Shown: one piece after another, positions 1 through 25,082 of the stretch | Numbering within the stretch: the stretch's first letter is position 1 | How the letters are laid out: every line of letters begins with the position of its first letter | IMG/VR virus record: IMGVR_UViG_3300045256_000863 | Location: 1-45,419 of that record | Direction: 5' to 3' (one strand) | DNA: 45,419 nt | Origin: a virus | Notes under the pieces: model-generated | What the model saw: the letters and a program-made list of their open reading frames with translations, nothing else | Databases searched by the model: none | What the model was told of the DNA's origin: nothing | Program-made: the position numbers and the translations under genes

Positions 1-1209
1 TCACTGAAAAACAACACCCATCCCGGAAGCGTTGGCAACAACTGGCAACATATCCGGATTTTTCACCTTCTTCGCGCCCTTCTTGCCGTTCGCTGGCAAC
101 AATACGCGCGCCATCTTCTCCACCGCGACGCGATGTTCATCGCCGACCAGATGGCCGTAGATGTTCACCGTCGTCTCCGGATCCTCGTGTCCTAACTGTG
201 CCTGGACGACCTTCGGAGAGACGCCCATCGATAGAAGGACGCTCGCCGTCGTGTGCCGGAACGCGTGCATCCCGCACACCGGGACGCCGACCTTCTTCAG
301 CACCGGATGGAGCCGGACGTCGTTCACCTTCGAGAGACGGAGAGGAGTCCCCGCCGTCGACGTGAACAGGAGATCGTCATCGTTCGCGCGCCATCCCCGC
401 ATGAGGTACTCCGCCAGGATCTCGCGCAACGGCTCCGGCATCGGGACGTCGCGATACGACCGCTTCGACTTGAGCGTAATCAGCGCCCCGCGATCGTTCG
501 ATCGCCGGACGTGGATCAGCTTCTCCGCGAAATTCAGATCGCCGCGCTTCAGCCCGAGAACCTCGCCAGGACGTAACCCCGAGAGCGCCGCCGTCGCGAA
601 TAGAACTCGCCACATCCCCTCAGCGTTCGCCAGGATCAGACGAACGATCTCGGGGCTGAAGTGACTCCGCTTCACGGGCTCGTCGAAGTTCGGGAGCTCG
701 AGATCGCTCGCGTGATACGTCGCGACCGCGTACCCCCATTTTTTAGCCGTCGCGTGAATCGCGCCGAAAGTCCCGATCACGTTCATGACCGAGTGACGCT
801 TCATCCGCTTCAGCAATTGAGCGACGAGCGCCTGCACCTGCATCTGACCGATCGACGCGAGCTCGTGATCCCCGAAGTACGGGACGAGCGACGTCTTTAG
901 GTGCTGAAGCGCTTTCGTCTGCGTTGATGGTTTTCGAGTCGGAAGGACGCGCTCCTTCCACAGCTCCGTGAACTCAGCGAACGAGATCACGAAACCCGGG
1001 CGATGGTGGACATCGTTCAGCGGCGATACGACGCGATCAGCGAGACGACGCGCTTCGCGTAACGAGATCTCGGACACGTTCCCGAGCCACGTCTTACGAA
1101 GTACGCGTTTGATCTCCCCGCTCGCGCTGAGTACGTCTTCGCGCCACATGAACCGCCATCTCCCCTCGACAGCTTTCAAACTCCCCCGTTGGTATCTCCT
1201 GCGGGCCAT
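1..1209 (-). CDS. int: Tyrosine-family phage integrase
   Basis: Site-specific recombinase that would integrate and excise the phage. The 402-aa protein has an N-terminal DNA-binding part with an AP2-like start (RRRYQRGSLK), a SAM-like core-binding domain (about 75-165) and the catalytic domain (about 185-365). Catalytic residues are visible: Arg213 in SGLRPGE, Lys247 or Lys249, His315-x-x-Arg318 in HAFRH, His341 in LGH and the nucleophile Tyr351 in NIYGH. The ATG at 1209 was chosen because AAGGAGGT lies just upstream (1217-1224). The frame stays open for another 121 codons upstream, but that part does not look like integrase. The stop codon is the first three bases of the window, so the gene is complete. 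It is the last gene of the leftward early block, behind a TetR gene and a separate promoter. Confidence 0.95.
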   Translation of the reverse strand: MARRRYQRGSLKAVEGRWRFMWREDVLSASGEIKRVLRKTWLGNVSEISLREARRLADRVVSPLNDVHHRPGFVISFAEFTELWKERVLPTRKPSTQTKALQHLKTSLVPYFGDHELASIGQMQVQALVAQLLKRMKRHSVMNVIGTFGAIHATAKKWGYAVATYHASDLELPNFDEPVKRSHFSPEIVRLILANAEGMWRVLFATAALSGLRPGEVLGLKRGDLNFAEKLIHVRRSNDRGALITLKSKRSYRDVPMPEPLREILAEYLMRGWRANDDDLLFTSTAGTPLRLSKVNDVRLHPVLKKVGVPVCGMHAFRHTTASVLLSMGVSPKVVQAQLGHEDPETTVNIYGHLVGDEHRVAVEKMARVLLPANGKKGAKKVKNPDMLPVVANASGMGVVFQ

Positions 1210-1554
1210 CGAAACGACCTCCTTCGGTCGAGTCGGCCCGCTGACTCCTTCGGACTTGGGACTGACTGTAACGGTCCCAATCGAGTAAAGCAACACTTCA
1301 CAGGTAACGCCGGAGTGATACGCCAGCGCGTCGAGCACTATCCCGGGGAGAGTCAGCTCTCCAGCCGGACCGATCAGCCCCTCGTAATCGCACACGAGGA
1401 GGATCGAGATCGCCAGCATGAGGGAGACAACGATCAGGAGACGACGCGAGCGCCTCGAGAGTGAAGCGCCGCTTTTCTTCTCTGGTTGGACGGGGGCAAA
1501 ACCCGCACTTCTGGCCCGATACTGCGAAACTCCCCACATAGCCCCACGAACGGT
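1210..1554. other. Integrase leader, no independent gene supported
   Basis: About 345 bases between the putative integrase promoter and the integrase ATG. The only long frame is in phase with the integrase and open from a TTG at 1572. It contains a hydrophobic stretch (LLIVVSLMLAISILLVC) that would form a membrane helix if translated. It has no convincing ribosome binding site and nothing recognisable. I treat it as a long untranslated leader, possibly also holding part of the attachment region. Confidence 0.35.
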
Positions 1555-1582
1555 TTTATGTGAGCACAGCAAAAGTTGTCAA
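1555..1582 (-). promoter_or_regulatory. Sigma70-like promoter for the integrase
   Basis: Leftward -35 box TTGACA (1577-1582, perfect consensus) and -10 box CATAAA (1555-1560) with a 16-base spacer. The site is downstream of tetR and upstream of the integrase, with two palindromes just upstream of the -35 box. The -10 box is only a partial match, so activity is an inference. Confidence 0.5.
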
Positions 1583-10400: not shown

Positions 10401-10435
10401 ATTGATTTTTTCAATCGCTCGGCGATAAGTGATTG
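10401..10435. promoter_or_regulatory. Cluster of ATTGA/TCAAT inverted repeats, operator candidate
   Basis: ATTGA-TTTTT-TCAAT spans 10401-10415, and a second arm pair CAATC (10412-10416) / GATTG (10431-10435) overlaps it. Together they give three or four half-sites of the same RTTGA type across about 35 bp. This is the most AT-rich stretch in this part of the window, as expected of a switch region. Confidence 0.4.
10402..10429 (+). promoter_or_regulatory. Possible rightward promoter for the HEPN pair
   Basis: TTGATT (10402-10407) and GATAAG (10424-10429) with a 16-base spacer; each box matches four of six consensus bases. It overlaps the inverted repeats, so binding there would block it. A TAAAAT at 10463-10468 is an alternative -10 box without a good -35. 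Low confidence on the exact site. Confidence 0.3.
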
Positions 10436-10523
10436 ACCGTGCCTAACGTTTTGTGCCGGGTGTAAAATTTCCCTATTAGGCCCAATGACTTAGGAGGCAT
10501 CACAGGGAAGTCGAAGGAGATCC

Positions 10524-11036
10524 ATGCAGACAGAGGCATTTAAGGAGCGCGTGAAGCGACTCCAAGAAGTGAACGAGGTAATCGAGAAACTCGATCCAGC
10601 CGTGCGCGCGCAAGCGTTCACGCTTCTATCCGACTACGTCACCGGCACGACGACGAATCACAAGCCCGCCGCGCCCGCCGACAGCGAGCCGCCAGCGGAG
10701 ACGCCAGATCCAGCGAGTGACGGCTCCGACTTCTTCGCGAAGCACCCGAACGGGAGACCTTCAGAGAACGCGCTCGCGATCGCGGCGTATCTTTACGGCC
10801 AATACGGCGTACAGCCGTTCCAGCTCGACGACATACGGAAGACCGCGACCGCGGTCGGGTTGACGATCCCCGATGCTCTCGACATGACGCTCAAACAGGC
10901 GGCGCGCGACGGAAAGACGCTGTTCCAGCGCACGGGGTACAACCAATACAAGCCCACAGTGAACGGCGAGCTCTACTTCCAAAAGAAATACCAGGTGAAG
11001 AAGGGCACCAAGACGCGCCCCGGTAACGGGTCGTGA
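10524..11036 (+). CDS. Winged-helix-like partner gene of the HEPN protein
   Basis: 170 aa, one of only two rightward genes. Residues 1-45 are helical (FKERVKRLQEVNEVIEKLDP). Residues 46-75 form a disordered Pro/Ala/Glu linker. Residues 75-170 form a compact, probably winged-helix domain (NALAIAAYLYGQYGVQPFQL, DDIRKTATAVGLTIPD, YNQYKPTVNGELYFQKKY) with a basic tail. An excellent Shine-Dalgarno AAGGAGAT (10514-10521) precedes the ATG. It is translationally coupled to the HEPN gene (GTGA overlap). It may be the antitoxin, the sensor or a DNA-binding regulator of the pair. Not recognised as a named family. Confidence 0.7.
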   Translation: MQTEAFKERVKRLQEVNEVIEKLDPAVRAQAFTLLSDYVTGTTTNHKPAAPADSEPPAETPDPASDGSDFFAKHPNGRPSENALAIAAYLYGQYGVQPFQLDDIRKTATAVGLTIPDALDMTLKQAARDGKTLFQRTGYNQYKPTVNGELYFQKKYQVKKGTKTRPGNGS

Positions 11037-11773
11037 CGCTCGTCGAGTTTCTCGCGACGCTGGCGAAGACTGGACACCGCGAGAAGATCCTCGCGGTCCT
11101 GTACTACAACCTGCGGACGAACAATAAGGACTCGCTCACGATCGAGCAGATCCGCGATGAGCTGAAGCGAGCGCGCGTGCCGAAGTGGGCGAAGATCAAC
11201 GTCGCCGACGTGCTCAACAAGGCCGGAGCATTCGTCGATAGCCCGGGCCTGGACGGGAACCGCCGTCTCTGGCGAATCACGCCATCGGGCGAGAAGCATA
11301 TCCGCGAACAGCTCCAGCTCCCCGCCGAGCCCGAGCTCGAACACGACGTCTCGACGCTCGAGGCTCTCGCGAAGAAGGTAGGCGATCAGGACGTCCGCGA
11401 GTACATCGAGGAGTCGATCAAGTGCCTAAGCGTCGGCGCGCTCCGCGCCGCGGTCGTGTTCCTCTGGACGGGAGCGATCCGCACGCTCCAACAGGAGGCG
11501 CTCGCCAGCCACGCCGCGACGCTAAACGCCGCGCTCACAAAGCACGATCCGAAGGCGCGCTCCGTGAGCAAGGTCGAGGACTTCGCCTATATAAAGGATG
11601 CGACCGCGCTCCTCGCTTTTCAGGAGCTCGGCATGATCGACAAGGGCGAGAAGCAAACGCTCGGAGAAGCTCTCGATCTCCGGAATCGTTGTGGTCATCC
11701 GACGAAGTACCGCCCCGGACCGAAGAAAGCCTCGAGCTTTATCGAGGACGTCGTCGGGATCGTCTTCATGTAA
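11033..11773 (+). CDS. HEPN-domain protein, putative RNase effector
   Basis: 246 aa, GTG start overlapping the upstream stop as GTGA. The N-terminal 95 residues look like winged helices (LTIEQIRDELKRARVPKWAK ... GNRRLWRITPSGEKHI). The C-terminal half is all-helical and ends with DLRNRCGHPTKY, containing Arg217-x4-His222, the R-x4-H signature of HEPN ribonucleases. HEPN proteins act as toxins or antiviral effectors by cutting RNA. Context fits: an isolated two-gene unit on the opposite strand from everything else, with its own control region and a terminator beyond. Whether it defends the lysogen against other phages or is part of immunity is inferred. Confidence 0.75.
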   Translation: MTLVEFLATLAKTGHREKILAVLYYNLRTNNKDSLTIEQIRDELKRARVPKWAKINVADVLNKAGAFVDSPGLDGNRRLWRITPSGEKHIREQLQLPAEPELEHDVSTLEALAKKVGDQDVREYIEESIKCLSVGALRAAVVFLWTGAIRTLQQEALASHAATLNAALTKHDPKARSVSKVEDFAYIKDATALLAFQELGMIDKGEKQTLGEALDLRNRCGHPTKYRPGPKKASSFIEDVVGIVFM

Positions 11774-11806
11774 AAAACCCCCGACAGGGTTCAAGCCTGC
11801 CGGGGG
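11772..11806 (-). terminator. Rho-independent terminator ending the late operon
   Basis: Stem CCCCCGACAGG (11778-11788) with CCTGCCGGGGG (11796-11806), one mismatch, 7-base loop. Read leftward it is followed by TTTTTT (complement of 11772-11777). It stops late lysis transcripts before they enter the HEPN gene, whose stop codon is at 11771-11773. A second hairpin (GCGCGCC/GGCGCGC, 11816-11838) lies just before it. Confidence 0.8.
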
Positions 11807-11848
11807 CCGGGGAGTGCGCGCCGGGGGAGTGGGCGCGCGAGGGGGAGT

Positions 11849-13785: not shown

Positions 13786-13796
13786 GTCTCTCTTTA
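13783..13796 (-). promoter_or_regulatory. TAAAGAGAGACTTT motif upstream of the lysis genes
   Basis: Leftward TAAAGAGAGACTTT differs at one position from TAAAGCGAGACTTT at 32613-32626, upstream of the head-operon promoter. It lies 66 bp before the endolysin ATG and overlaps the tail fibre stop codon. A shared late-gene regulator site is inferred. Confidence 0.35.
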
Positions 13797-14912
13797 CAGC
13801 TCGGCGTTAAGCGAAATCGTCTGCGGCGAACCCTGAGCGGAATAGTAGCCAGCAGACCCGGAGGTGACGCTCGTTTGAGTTACCAGGATCGCGACGATCG
13901 TCGTACTAACAGCGGTGATGGACGCGGTCCCGCTTCCGGTTCCCGGGTTCATCGCGAGCGATCCAGATGCAGAGCCCGTTGGCTTCACCCGCATTGCTAC
14001 GGGCAAATATAGAAAGCCTAGAGACTGAGTCGACGAGTACGCGGCGGCCATGACGAAGGCATCGCCCACGGCAGTAGTTACCGCGAAGAAATATCGATGG
14101 CAGAGGGCAAGCTCCACTTGCGCCGGACGCCACTCGAACGACGATGCGGAGCTCCCGAGCTCGAGCTGAACTTCGGAGAAGGAGACGCTCGTACCGCCGA
14201 GCTTCACCGTGATATTTCCCGTACTGCCCGCCGCGATCGTGAACGACACGCCGCGCCGACCACTTCCCGCCGTGATCGTCCCCGTCTGCCCGTCGACGTT
14301 GACCGAGATCGATCCGCTCGGATTGTTCACCGAGATCGTGACGACCTGATTCGCGAGGTTCGGCGACTCGATCACCTGGACGATCGTCCCGCTCGTGATC
14401 GTGACCGTCTTCCCGCTGACGCTGTAGTTCGCGCCTCCGGTGTCGGCCTTCCATCGATCATGACCGTACACGCCAGCCGCGAGCGCGCCCCCAGCGAACG
14501 CGCGTTGATTGATCGCGAAGTCACCGTTTATGAGGTAGTTCTTGAAGCCGCGCGTCGGCCCGTACATGAGATCCCACGCGCTACCGTTGTACGCCGCGGG
14601 CTGTTTCTCGTCCTCGAGATAGACCTCCCATCCCGTTTTAGGCGTGAAGAACTCCCACGCCGACGCGACGCTCGAGTAACGCGCGATCTTGTTCGTCTGC
14701 CCGCTCCAGTTCGCGCCCGTCGCGCCGCTCGGGATGATGTACATATCGCCATCCGCTGGCGATCCGGGCTGAGCCGTGATCGATCGACTTTTCACGTGCG
14801 CTTGCACGAGACCATCGACAGCGCGAAGCATCGCCCGGAACTGGTTCCCGTGCGCGTCGCCGTCCGCCGCATTCACCATAACGCCAAGGTTCGGCCCATT
14901 GGTCACACTCAT
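13794..14912 (-). CDS. Tail fibre or receptor-binding protein with DUF2793-like domain
   Basis: 372 aa. After a short N-terminus, residues 40-115 show a DUF2793-like pattern (QPGSPADGDMYIIPSGATGA ... TGWEVYLEDEKQPAAYNGSAW), found in phage tail fibres. The rest is a Gly/Ser/Thr-rich beta domain with a segment LINGDFAINQRAF typical of fibre C-terminal carbohydrate-binding regions. It is the last structural gene, after the tip protein, and overlaps it as ATGA. Likely host-recognition component. Confidence 0.75.
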   Translation of the reverse strand: MSVTNGPNLGVMVNAADGDAHGNQFRAMLRAVDGLVQAHVKSRSITAQPGSPADGDMYIIPSGATGANWSGQTNKIARYSSVASAWEFFTPKTGWEVYLEDEKQPAAYNGSAWDLMYGPTRGFKNYLINGDFAINQRAFAGGALAAGVYGHDRWKADTGGANYSVSGKTVTITSGTIVQVIESPNLANQVVTISVNNPSGSISVNVDGQTGTITAGSGRRGVSFTIAAGSTGNITVKLGGTSVSFSEVQLELGSSASSFEWRPAQVELALCHRYFFAVTTAVGDAFVMAAAYSSTQSLGFLYLPVAMRVKPTGSASGSLAMNPGTGSGTASITAVSTTIVAILVTQTSVTSGSAGYYSAQGSPQTISLNAEL

Positions 14913-17362
14913 TGCTGCACCCCTCCGAAGTTCAATCCGAATTGCATTCCGAAGCCCGTCATCGTGAACGAGCGCTCCTGGTACGTACCCGTAAGCGTGC
15001 CATTAACCGGGATCACGCGCATCGCGACGACCTTCGTTCCGTCCGTATCGTCCGCTAGCCGCTGCGCCGCCGTGTACGCCTGACTCGTTCCCGTCACCGC
15101 GGAGAACGTCTGTTTCAGCACGCCGCCGACGCGCACCTCGACCGTGTAGTTACCTTCCGGGCCAGCCGCCACGCTCGCCGCATCCTGCGAGAGCACCGTC
15201 TCCGCCGTCGCCTGGGTTACGCGGTTCCGATGCGCCCACGTCATCGTGGCATCGCCCGTCGTCGTCGTCGGCCACGCGAGAGTGTTCACGCGGATCAGCC
15301 CGGGCGCGTATGGCTTCTGAGCGCGCGAGCTCGTCGTTATCGACACCGCGGAGACATCCGCGAGCGTGAGCGTCTTCGTCGGCGTGTACGTGAGGAGCTT
15401 CGCGTTCAGCGTCAGATCCGCGCCGTACGGGCTATCGTCCGTCAGCCCGACGCCTTCCGTCAGGAACCACACGCGCGCGCCCGCCGCGTGATCCGCGGGG
15501 ATCGTATCCAGAACCGCGCGCATCAGTCCCGCGATCGTATAAGTACCGTCGCCGTTATCCGTGACCGTCTTCCACGCGATCAGCTCGCCGTCGACGAGGA
15601 GGATGTTCTTCCCCGCGTTCCAATCCGCATCCGTCGCCGACGCGAGATCGAACATATCCTTCCCACCCTGGACGACGAAGCCCGTATTGTCGATCGCGCT
15701 CGTCGTCTTCGGGTACGTCGAGACCAGCGTCGCCGATGGCGTGAACGCCGGGATGTCCTCCGACTGCGAGTAATTCGTACCGCCGCTGTTCCGATCCGTC
15801 CACACCTGATAGCCCGTCTCGACGACTCCCGCGCGCGTCCCGAGCGTCATCACGTAGCGATCCGCGCTCCCGACGAGCTGATACGGCGCTTCCTCGAGAC
15901 GCTGGAACGCGAGCGGCTGCGGAGTGAAATTCGTGTCCGTCCACTCGGACGGCGGCGGAGGCGCGTACGCCGTCGACGTCAGCCCGAAGATATCCTCGAC
16001 CGCGTCGATGGAGATCGTCGCGTCCGTCAGGCCGCCGTAACTGATCCTCGTAACGCGACAAGTCATCGCCGAGATCCCGAGCGGCGTCCAGTCGAGACGG
16101 AACACCGATCCGGGCCGCATGTTCCACGCGAGACGATTCACCTTCAGCTCGAGCGACGCGAGCGGATAGCTCAGCGTCTTGAGCGCGCGCTGAGCGACGA
16201 GAGACGCCGTCGCGCCGTTACTGACACCGCGGAACGTGATCGACTCCGTCACGACCTCGCCGCCGCGCGCCTGGATGTTCGCGAGATCCTGGGCCTGCGC
16301 AACCGCCTCCGTGAAGTCCTGCGAGCGGTCCGTGTACTGGATCTTGATCGTGTTCCGCGTCTCGCTCCAGCTCGAGCGCGCCATCGTGCACGACTTCACG
16401 TTCGACGGATTCATCTTCGGGATCGTGTTCACGTCGTAATCCTGACGCGCGAGCTTCAGCGTAATGAGGCCCGTACTCGGATCCGTATAGATCACGCCGT
16501 CGACATGGCGAAGGATGTCACCGATCACGCCGTTCGCGTCGCTCGGGCTATCGAGGATCATCGACAGCCCCATCCCCTCCGCGAAAAGCGTATTCCCCGC
16601 GGACGTGAACGAAGCCGCGTCGATCATCACCGGGGAGACGCCGATACTCCACGTCGGATCCGTGAGGATCTCGTAAAGCATGCATGCGGGATTCGCATCG
16701 CCATTGATGTTGTGCTTGTTCCCGGTGAGACCGAGCTGATTCGGGCAGCGACGAACGACGAACGACGGACTCTTGAGATACGACGACGTCCCGACATACA
16801 TCCCGCGCATGACCGCATAGCAGTGCGGACGATACGCCGGGAGCGACTTCCCGACCTTCGCCTGAAGGTAGTCGTTAGGCACCTGAGCGGACGTCCCCGG
16901 ATAGAAGTCCATCATCCCGGAGATTCCGCCTTCGCTCTCCTCGCCGCCGAACAGGTCCGGCGAATTGATCGAGATCGTGAAGTGATTCGGATCCGACGTG
17001 TTCGTCGTGTACGACGGCGACTTATCGCCCCACTTCAGGCTAATGAACTCGAGCGTCCCTTGAGCGAGGACGATCTGCATCCCGAGGTAATACTTGTAAC
17101 CCGTGATGATCTTCTTGCTCGAAAAGAGCCCCGTCTTCACCTTCTTTTTGATCGGGTTGATCTGTAGATCCCCGAACCATACGACGTTGGGTCCGCTGAT
17201 CTTGCACGTTCCCCACACGACGGGAACCGCGCGACCCTCCTCCGCAGTCGGAAGCGTGAAGTCGCCGAGCGCTGACGGCTGAGGCGTTCCGAACTTGGGC
17301 TTCGGGCGCAGCAGCTCGCCAGCGATCATCATGGCGATCATTACGATAATCATCCACCACAT
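14909..17362 (-). CDS. Tail tip / central hub protein
   Basis: 817 aa. The N-terminus is strongly hydrophobic (MWWMIIVMIAMMIAGELL). The next part resembles tail-tip attachment proteins (AVPVVWGTCKISGPNVVWFG), and the middle contains a domain typical of hub proteins (LRHVDGVIYTDPSTGLITLK, LARQDYDV). The last third holds fibronectin-like beta domains (about 710-800). Position, after minor tail proteins and before the fibre, is that of lambda J. The hydrophobic start is common in this family and may help contact the host membrane. Confidence 0.8.
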   Translation of the reverse strand: MWWMIIVMIAMMIAGELLRPKPKFGTPQPSALGDFTLPTAEEGRAVPVVWGTCKISGPNVVWFGDLQINPIKKKVKTGLFSSKKIITGYKYYLGMQIVLAQGTLEFISLKWGDKSPSYTTNTSDPNHFTISINSPDLFGGEESEGGISGMMDFYPGTSAQVPNDYLQAKVGKSLPAYRPHCYAVMRGMYVGTSSYLKSPSFVVRRCPNQLGLTGNKHNINGDANPACMLYEILTDPTWSIGVSPVMIDAASFTSAGNTLFAEGMGLSMILDSPSDANGVIGDILRHVDGVIYTDPSTGLITLKLARQDYDVNTIPKMNPSNVKSCTMARSSWSETRNTIKIQYTDRSQDFTEAVAQAQDLANIQARGGEVVTESITFRGVSNGATASLVAQRALKTLSYPLASLELKVNRLAWNMRPGSVFRLDWTPLGISAMTCRVTRISYGGLTDATISIDAVEDIFGLTSTAYAPPPPSEWTDTNFTPQPLAFQRLEEAPYQLVGSADRYVMTLGTRAGVVETGYQVWTDRNSGGTNYSQSEDIPAFTPSATLVSTYPKTTSAIDNTGFVVQGGKDMFDLASATDADWNAGKNILLVDGELIAWKTVTDNGDGTYTIAGLMRAVLDTIPADHAAGARVWFLTEGVGLTDDSPYGADLTLNAKLLTYTPTKTLTLADVSAVSITTSSRAQKPYAPGLIRVNTLAWPTTTTGDATMTWAHRNRVTQATAETVLSQDAASVAAGPEGNYTVEVRVGGVLKQTFSAVTGTSQAYTAAQRLADDTDGTKVVAMRVIPVNGTLTGTYQERSFTMTGFGMQFGLNFGGVQQ

Positions 17363-22298: not shown

Positions 22299-25082
22299 TC
22301 AGCCCCTTCCGAGTGCTTGGCTCATGCCGTTTTTGTTCTTCGCCGCCACCCGCACGACAGCGCGCGCGAAGTCCGGCGAAGTCGTGAGTCGCTTCAGGAT
22401 CAGCCCCTCGTCGAGCCCGATTTCCATACTTGCGTTACCCCCCGTGCTGCCCTGGCCCGCCGCCGCCGAGACGAGACCGCCATCAGCGAAGCGCGGTACG
22501 CCCGAATACCTACGCGGGATCATGCCGCCACGGTTCAACGTCGACAAGTGCTCGAGCACCCCGGGCTGCGACACGACCGCGGAGCGCACGACGAACTCGC
22601 CGTCCGAGAGCCGCGCCGGGATCGAGTCGCTCGTCCCCGTGCCAGGACCAGACACGAGACCGCCATCCGCGAAGCCGCCCGACGCCGCGGACATGCTGTT
22701 CGCGATCATCAGCGTCGTTGCCGCCGCCTGGAGCTGAGCCGCTGACACCGAGAGCGCCGCCGCGCCCGTCGTCAGCGTCGCGCCGCCCGCCGTCAGGACC
22801 GCGCTCGCCGCCGTGATCGGAGCCGCGTACGCCGCGCCAGCCGCCGCCGCCGTCGCTACCTGCTTCCCGGCGTCGCCCTGTCCCTGGCCGCCGCCGAGCG
22901 CGTTGAACAGCTCGGAGACGATCTTTGTCGCGACCGCCTGAGCCGCCATCGCCTCGAGCGAGTCGATCACCGAGAGCGCGAGATTCCGGACCGCCTCGCC
23001 GAACGAATCCGCCTCGCGGATCCCGTTCGTGAAGAAATTCGTCAGGCCGGAGATGAGCGACTCCTGAGCCGTCGCCTTGAACTGCGCCAGGAAGCGCCCC
23101 GCCTCGTCGACGTTGACGCCGATTTGCTTGATCGAGTCCGAGAGCTGCCGCGCTGCGTCGATCATCTGAGGATCGTTCGTCGCCTCGCCGATCCGGAGCA
23201 TCTCGTCCGCGATCTTCTGGAGCTGCGGGAGCCGTTGCTTCTCGTACTCGATCAACTGCTGATCGGCCTGGGCCTGGAACAGCAGCCCGTGAGCGACCTT
23301 GTCCTGAAGCTCCGATTGTTTCGCCTGGATATCGCTCAGCGCGCGCTGACCCGACTCGTTCAGCTTGTTGAAGTCGATCTCTTGATTCCCGCGCGTCGAC
23401 ATCTTCGAGATGATCTCCGCGCGCTGATCCGCCGCGACGCCCTGCTTCTTCAGGAGCTCGTCCGTCTCCTTCAGCTCCTTCTCGAGCGCCAGCGCCGCCG
23501 CCGTCCAGCGATCGCCCTCGACGTCCGCGATCTTCTTCCGGATATCGAGCACCTCGAGCGCGCGCTTCTTCTCCTCGTCCACGCGCTGCTGGGAGAGGTT
23601 CTTCAGATCGCCCTCGAGCTCGAGCTTCTTTTGCGCGATCTGCGTCTGAATCGACGCGATCTCCTGCTGTTTCTTGATCTCCGACGCCGTATCGTCCGCG
23701 GGCTCCGCCTTCGCCGCCTTCAGCTTGACGTTGAGCGCCTTCAGCTCCGCCTCCGCGTTCGCCTTCGCCAGCGCCTCGCGCTTGTCGTAATACTCCTGGA
23801 CGGAGATCAGGCCATTGTCGTACGCGCGTTTGTTCTCATCCTCGACGAGCTTGTTTTTCGCCTTCGTGATCGCGAGCTCGTTTTCCGCCTGAGCCTTCAG
23901 GAACGCGAGCCGCGCCTGAGCGATCGCCGTCGTGTTGGTGTCCACGCCTCCGCCGACGCCGCCAGGACGTCGCGTCGTCGACTCCGCTTTCGGCTCCTCG
24001 TCTCCGAACGCCGATCCCCACGCCTTCGACACGCGGTCGCGCTGCTCCTTCAGCGTGTCCTCGAGACCCTGGAACATCGCCTTACGACGATCGAACGATT
24101 CCGTCGTGAGTCGCTTCGCCGCGGAGGAGAGATCTCCGTTCTTCGCGCGATCGACCGCCTCGCTTATCGCGTCGACGGTCTCCATCATCTGCGCGCCGAT
24201 CTGCCCGAGGATGCTTCCGAGCGCGACGAATCCGGAGATGATCGTCTGGATCACCGCACCAGCGACCTTGCCGAACGTCTTCATCACGTCCGTACCCTTG
24301 CCCGTGACGTTCTCGTTAAACGTCTCCATCGCATCCGCGATGGCGGGGGCAAGTCCGGACATGAATCGCATCGCGAGACCGTTCGCGATGTTCTTCATAT
24401 CTGTCATGGCGTCGTTGGCGCGCGTCGCCGCCTCGACGAGATCCTGATCGATGATTAGGCCCATCTTCTCGGCCTTCTCGCGGACCTTCTCGAATCCTCC
24501 GTCCGCGAGATCGTTCAGCAGCGGCATGAGATCCGCGCCGCTCTTGCCGAACAGCGCCATCGCGGTGGCGGCTTTATTCGCCCCGGGCGGGAGCTTCTGG
24601 ATCTTGTTCGCGATGTTGACGAACATCTCGCCCGGATCCTGGTTCTTGATCTCCGACATCGAGATCCCCAGGCGCTTGAACGCGTCGACTTGCTTCGTCG
24701 ATCCGCTCGCCGCGTCCTGCATCGAGCGGGAGAGCTTCTGGAGCGATCCGCTGAGCTTCTCCTGATCGACGTCCGCCGTCGTAGCCGCCAGCGACAGAAC
24801 CGAGAGCGTCTCCGTCGTCGCGCCGACCTTCGCCGCGAGCTTGCCCATGTTGTCGGCAGTCTCGAGCGCGCGCTTGCCCATCTCGATCATGCCCTCGACC
24901 GCGACGGCGATCCCGATCGCGGGGAGAAGTTCCTTCAGCTCGCCGAGCGCCTCGCCGAGCACGCCGAAATGCTTTCCGGCCTCGCCCGTCTTCTTGCTCT
25001 CGTTCGCGATCTGCCGGAGAGCGCCGACGACCTCCTGAACGCCTTCAGCGCTCAGTCGTACGCGGATATCAGGATTCGCCAT
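22299..25082 (-). CDS. Tail tape measure protein
   Basis: 927 aa. It sets tail length and is ejected at infection. The N-terminus has the tape-measure pattern (DNMGKLAAKVGATTETLSVL and MALFGKSGADLMPLLNDLA). Hydrophobic helices occur near 210-270 and 740-800, and a long coiled-coil centre near 380-560. The C-terminus carries DSIPARLSDGEFVVRS and ALGRG, usual for this family. By the general rule of about 0.15 nm per residue, tail length would be roughly 140 nm. It follows the chaperone frameshift pair, the standard position. Confidence 0.93.
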   Translation of the reverse strand: MANPDIRVRLSAEGVQEVVGALRQIANESKKTGEAGKHFGVLGEALGELKELLPAIGIAVAVEGMIEMGKRALETADNMGKLAAKVGATTETLSVLSLAATTADVDQEKLSGSLQKLSRSMQDAASGSTKQVDAFKRLGISMSEIKNQDPGEMFVNIANKIQKLPPGANKAATAMALFGKSGADLMPLLNDLADGGFEKVREKAEKMGLIIDQDLVEAATRANDAMTDMKNIANGLAMRFMSGLAPAIADAMETFNENVTGKGTDVMKTFGKVAGAVIQTIISGFVALGSILGQIGAQMMETVDAISEAVDRAKNGDLSSAAKRLTTESFDRRKAMFQGLEDTLKEQRDRVSKAWGSAFGDEEPKAESTTRRPGGVGGGVDTNTTAIAQARLAFLKAQAENELAITKAKNKLVEDENKRAYDNGLISVQEYYDKREALAKANAEAELKALNVKLKAAKAEPADDTASEIKKQQEIASIQTQIAQKKLELEGDLKNLSQQRVDEEKKRALEVLDIRKKIADVEGDRWTAAALALEKELKETDELLKKQGVAADQRAEIISKMSTRGNQEIDFNKLNESGQRALSDIQAKQSELQDKVAHGLLFQAQADQQLIEYEKQRLPQLQKIADEMLRIGEATNDPQMIDAARQLSDSIKQIGVNVDEAGRFLAQFKATAQESLISGLTNFFTNGIREADSFGEAVRNLALSVIDSLEAMAAQAVATKIVSELFNALGGGQGQGDAGKQVATAAAAGAAYAAPITAASAVLTAGGATLTTGAAALSVSAAQLQAAATTLMIANSMSAASGGFADGGLVSGPGTGTSDSIPARLSDGEFVVRSAVVSQPGVLEHLSTLNRGGMIPRRYSGVPRFADGGLVSAAAGQGSTGGNASMEIGLDEGLILKRLTTSPDFARAVVRVAAKNKNGMSQALGRG

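Follow-up and report, generated by a model that had tools for sequence, protein, structure and literature searches.

That HEPN domains serve as effectors is already known. PD-T7-3, a HEPN relative, confers anti-phage protection (PMC9519451); so does BxaP, which is structurally similar to PD-T7-3/Dandelion and loses much of that protection upon the substitution P121A (PMC10799925); and Tha is a HEPN defence of Staphylococcus aureus prophages that is restrained by another phage gene (PMC11087260). HEPN domains fused to a winged helix-turn-helix within larger proteins have likewise been described (PMC3710099). Here, we consider two overlapping genes, A and B, of the 45,419-bp IMG/VR virus record IMGVR_UViG_3300045256_000863, the whole of which was analysed and is called the window below. 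Sequence comparison and structural modelling support B as a winged-helix protein carrying a HEPN domain with an intact R-x4-H motif, and A is itself winged-helix-like. The favoured reading, to which we give a probability of about 60%, is that the pair forms a two-gene module of a putative HEPN ribonuclease (RNase) toxin and a winged-helix antitoxin or sensor, probably providing abortive anti-phage immunity.

The locus departs from each of its closest described counterparts. Judged from the HEPN domain only, PD-T7-3 and BxaP are the nearest relatives with a tested function. PD-T7-3/Dandelion (PDB 9wx2, 9wxf) has a homologous HEPN domain with the R...HP motif; however, both it and BxaP are single proteins with an N-terminal HEPN domain followed by about 300 residues, whereas B, at 246 residues, carries its HEPN domain C-terminally, behind a winged helix, and is coupled to a partner gene, and its match to the library profile of PD-T7-3/Dandelion is confined to residues 108–149. 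The PDC-M34-like loci L013, L041 and L070 combine a PDC-M34A-like partner with a small HEPN protein of the same superfamily as B (the partner in L013 matches both DUF5343, E=5e-35, and the PADLOC family PDC-M34A, E=5e-47; PDC-M34A similarity is weaker for those in L041 and L070). In contrast, A in the window has no PDC-M34A match in PADLOC and B has the extra winged helix; the PDC-M34B profile PDLC04590 does not match B, but it also found nothing in four genomes comprising these loci and controls. HEPN/MNT (HepT/MntA) systems are, like A and B, two-gene HEPN modules, and their HEPN fold is among the top structural matches; unlike them, A lacks a match to an MNT nucleotidyltransferase, and the B motif, RNRCGHPTKY, is R-x4-H-P rather than R-x4-H-x-Y. 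Tha, likened here by its description, parallels the proposed reading in being a prophage HEPN immunity checked by a second phage gene, but the partner in the window is upstream, co-directional and of winged-helix type.

The sequence-only reading of this DNA, which proposed a candidate defence or immunity system, knew of no named system with this pair, and none was found in Pfam, NCBIfam or PADLOC; open papers and a few preprints yielded no relevant literature on PDC-M34, DUF5343 or Dandelion. The two-gene form with a shared winged helix is unnamed in these libraries and in open papers, the partly overlapping PDC-M34 aside, with subscription papers and most preprints lying outside the search.

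The gene pair and the HEPN domain of protein B

That A and B are a real gene pair is confirmed by the G+C content at third codon positions (GC3), which is 0.78 for A and 0.83 for B on the plus strand and lower (0.61, 0.69) for the opposing open reading frames. The two rightward frames called earlier are thereby borne out; their description as the only rightward genes holds for the clear ones, in that the large neighbours with a clear GC3 signal code on the minus strand and the other rightward frames examined appear to be shadows of leftward genes wherever the signal is clear; several small genes near 2–4 kb and 7–9 kb, and again at 12.4–13.5 kb, give a weak signal. A strong Shine-Dalgarno sequence precedes A, and B starts within the stop of A, both as had been noticed (Table 1).

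The N-terminal winged helix of B (residues 1–93) is confidently modelled by AlphaFold2 (AF2), with a predicted local distance difference test score (pLDDT) of about 77–88 as far as residue 90, and its top structural matches are MarR-like proteins with probabilities of up to 0.99. The C-terminal part has pLDDT below 50 in the full-length model; modelled alone with four sequences, it gives, in the best of five models, an all-helical HEPN bundle with pLDDT 83.4 and a predicted template modelling score of 0.76. The 12 best PDB matches of this model are all HEPN or HEPN/MNT entries, i.e., HEPN/MNT toxins, AF_0298 and the Sulfolobus protein 2q00, the last of which we take to be a HEPN protein. A profile of 13 relatives matched the solved Dandelion HEPN chain (E=4.8e-6) and, somewhat less strongly, full-length Dandelion (E=3.4e-5), the R...HP motif being covered in both cases; a viral fold library gave nothing useful.

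The arginine and histidine in which a HEPN RNase signature had been seen are conserved together with the following proline in 20/20 relatives, including non-phage ones, and the motif is therefore not a chance occurrence. The only invariant columns in the 13-member alignment are C131, W145, L210 and the motif residues R217, H222 and P223. We suspect that P121 of BxaP is the equivalent of this last proline. A PHROG search with A and B gave a match at E=3e-7 to the function-less family phrog_27609; matches to PIN_6, Raptor_N and RelB were sub-threshold and were discarded.

Relatives, partner genes and the shared winged helix

A pattern scan with B across 84,980 species genomes identified two that encode full-length relatives, one of Terriglobia (67% identity) and one of Betaproteobacteria (57–58%), each relative having a homologue of A beside it (49% and 47%, respectively) and the identical 4-bp overlap between the two genes. 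Next to the Betaproteobacteria pair lies a truncated tricarboxylate-receptor-like gene (L032:11254-11586), as if the pair had been inserted there or a local deletion had followed. Remoter relatives were obtained by profile searches of sampled genomes from three phyla, and the family spans three or more bacterial phyla. Clades were assigned by eye and by profile comparison: clade I (the window, L005, L006), clade II (L011, L016, L067, L068) and clade III (L017, L040, L069, L072) unite a winged helix with HEPN, clade IV (L012, L039) has another helical N-terminus, and clade V (L013, L041, L070) comprises the small HEPN proteins. The alignment of clades I–III extends past the HEPN domain into the winged-helix half, and that of IV and V is mainly restricted to HEPN.

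A partner gene coding for 155–262 residues adjoins B in 16/16 loci, the window included; the loci were picked as small-HEPN clades, with the Dandelion-like long proteins and L075–L077 left out, and the count therefore does not cover all HEPN genes. In 15 of the 16 it lies directly upstream and co-directional at −14 to +12 bp, i.e., in the small operon with overlapping or adjacent genes that constitutes the type II toxin-antitoxin layout; in L016 it is divergent. Among the remoter small-HEPN-clade loci the partner is adjacent in 13/13, co-directional in 12 and divergent in one. Viral contigs scanned for matches to A, B, their alignments and the tail protein yielded no relative, which is weak evidence of absence since such scans need short conserved peptides, and tblastn found none of the pair in phage records. 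A separate HEPN-like kind with RNDAGHP or RNEAGHP, which does not belong to the pairs, is seen at L076:6883-7665, L077:6545-7330 and L075:680-1279, the first two with a probable N-terminal winged helix.

Protein A comprises a helical N-terminal module (residues 1–42), a low-complexity linker (about 43–70) and a winged-helix-like region (about 73–158). Comparison of A across clades failed with single sequences, and small grouped profiles worked for clades I and III only, the clade III profile also including A from L068 and from L016. With these, the C-terminal half of clade I A matches clade III A at 90% and the winged helix of clade II B at 87%, and clade III A matches the B proteins of clades I and III at 87% and 86%; in controls, 100 column shuffles per pair gave at most 7% and 76 unrelated proteins at most 40%. 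These profile matches point to a single winged-helix family common to A and B, in agreement with the earlier description of A as winged-helix-like. At its N-terminus, A matches the corresponding module of the L072 partner (82%), and the latter matches that of L012 (86%); other A proteins instead start with a strand-like segment, suggesting an exchangeable module.

Four Bacteroidota proteins (in L007, L038, L073 and L074) carry a tyrosine-recombinase-like region before a HEPN domain of the window type, and those of L007 and L038 are the nearest HEPN matches to clade I from outside it. The one fusion scanned, that of L007, matches Pfam Phage_integrase. Judged by eye on the alignment against the canonical motif, all four have E or D in place of the box I arginine and lack the box II H-x-L-R-H pattern, and the tyrosine position is kept in 2/4; the recombinase-like part thus presumably binds DNA rather than recombines. 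No A-like partner was seen beside the four in the loci read.

Weighing the readings of the pair

In the favoured reading, B would be a latent HEPN RNase, with R217 and H222 forming the active site in a putative dimer. A, translated first from a transcript common to B, would bind B, and perhaps operator DNA as well, and keep the RNase off until an infection cue (e.g., altered DNA, a phage protein or the loss of A) releases it. Freed B would then cut RNA and halt the cell before a rival phage multiplies, presumably to the benefit of the lysogen. The neighbourhoods of some remote pairs are suggestive of defence: a TIR-TM gene (E=6e-61) lies directly downstream of the L011 pair (L033), L039 adjoins a type II methyltransferase and a restriction enzyme, an HNH nuclease is near L041, and a gene resembling those for the large subunit of phage terminases is found a few kb from L070. 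Upstream of the clade II pair, L033:7309-8950 holds three small genes, the last encoding a protein with NRGGRHD; PADLOC matches none of them, and they possibly include a second winged-helix/HEPN-like pair.

Several observations weigh against this reading. The close relatives L005 and L006 are solitary among ordinary genes, with no obvious prophage or defence island. Of the earlier reading, what stands is the winged-helix/HEPN protein with its intact motif, the related winged helix of A and the pairing, kept across phyla and unnamed in the libraries; toxicity, restraint or sensing by A, and defence against phages are proposed roles. For the partners of L011/L067 and of clades IV and V, comparison with the clade I winged helix gave no match over the whole domain. 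Only one of the five HEPN-domain models is confident, the other four being poor (pLDDT 49–57), and the PDB fold matches have E>0.09, with none at E<0.001. Pfam, NCBIfam and PADLOC hold no family for A and gave only weak matches for B.

The main rival is a plain type II toxin-antitoxin system, with A as antitoxin and B as RNase toxin, serving prophage addiction and having no specific anti-phage role. HEPN toxins are classic toxins of such systems, and the small upstream partner, the overlapping genes, the linker and DNA-binding fold of A, the solitary close relatives and the HEPN/MNT structures among the top matches all fit it; against these stand the restriction or TIR genes beside some remote pairs, the anti-phage action of sister HEPN families and the presence of winged helices in both A and B, which is unusual for a simple toxin. 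On balance, we regard addiction as unlikely, though a serious competitor. An improbable alternative is sensor-effector immunity without an antitoxin, in which A and B would rest as a complex until their winged helices sense phage DNA or transcripts and switch on the HEPN RNase, B alone being harmless. The related winged helices of the two proteins are in its favour, as are the Bacteroidota fusions, where a recombinase-like domain stands in place of the winged helix next to HEPN; these suggest a DNA-reading domain as the sensing element. However, there is no direct sign of a sensed cue, and the gene order and coupling suit an antitoxin equally well.

Returning to the proposed two-gene immunity module, it ties a solitary phage pair to a multi-phylum family that profile libraries miss or, as PDC-M34, list in part. 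More tentatively, the family might be an undescribed modular HEPN RNase immune family in which the winged helix was duplicated in effector and regulator, the N-terminus of the regulator was swapped, a recombinase-like region took the place of the winged helix in Bacteroidota, and phages use the module for superinfection immunity. A and B would offer a simple test of what restrains and triggers a HEPN RNase that has neither a nucleotidyltransferase nor an ATPase or CRISPR partner.

Phage setting and control signals

PHROG matches identify the window as a temperate siphophage with leftward genes. The pair is flanked by the end of the late operon on one side and by the integrase-side block on the other, which would be a usual place for accessory genes.

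Table 1. Features of the window, with the recombinase-HEPN fusions of other loci in the last row
Feature	Position	Strand	Remarks
Integrase	1-1572		PHROG match
Palindrome	10411..10436	.	TCAATCGCT-N8-AGTGATTGA; between divergent gene blocks; possible operator
Shine-Dalgarno of A	10514..10519	+	AAGGAG, 4 nucleotides before the ATG
Gene A	10524..11036	+	170 residues; helical N-terminal module, linker, winged-helix-like C-terminus
Stop/start overlap of A and B	11033..11036	+	GTGA, 4 bp
Gene B	11033..11773	+	246 residues, GTG start; winged helix and HEPN
Winged-helix domain of B	11033..11317	+	Residues 1-95; AF2 model, MarR-like PDB matches
HEPN domain of B	11342..11770	+	Residues 104-246; AF2 model, PDB matches, Dandelion HEPN profile match
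R-x4-H motif of B	11681..11698	+	R217-N-R-C-G-H222, then invariant P223; codons 11681-11683 and 11696-11698
Intrinsic terminator of leftward late operon	11776..11808	-	Hairpin ending against the stop of B
Tail fibre	13794-14912		PHROG match
Tail protein	14909-17362		PHROG match
Tape measure	22299-25082		PHROG match
Head protease, portal, terminase	up to 34772		PHROG matches
Bacteroidota recombinase-HEPN fusions	L007:4899-6200; L038:9492-10832; L073:5930-7237; L074:6881-8185

The sequence-only reading had credited the pair with its own palindromic control region. The intergenic palindrome is real, its arms pairing at 8/9 positions at a single site in the window, and it is a possible regulator site; as a conserved operator of A it is unsupported, for a search upstream of the L005 and L006 A genes turned up no equivalent, leaving its link to the pair unproven. 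A phage regulatory pair for lysogeny or late control, with HEPN as a mere dimerisation module, would agree with the winged helices of A and B and with palindromes in the divergent intergenic region, but is very improbable given the invariance of R-x4-H-P in 20/20 relatives, non-phage ones included, the position of close relatives outside recognisable prophages and the palindrome's failure to recur upstream of relatives. A search for a sigma-70-like promoter found none. The hairpin downstream of B had been read as the terminator of the pair; that assignment is rejected, as its T tract is on the minus strand and it therefore terminates the leftward late operon instead.
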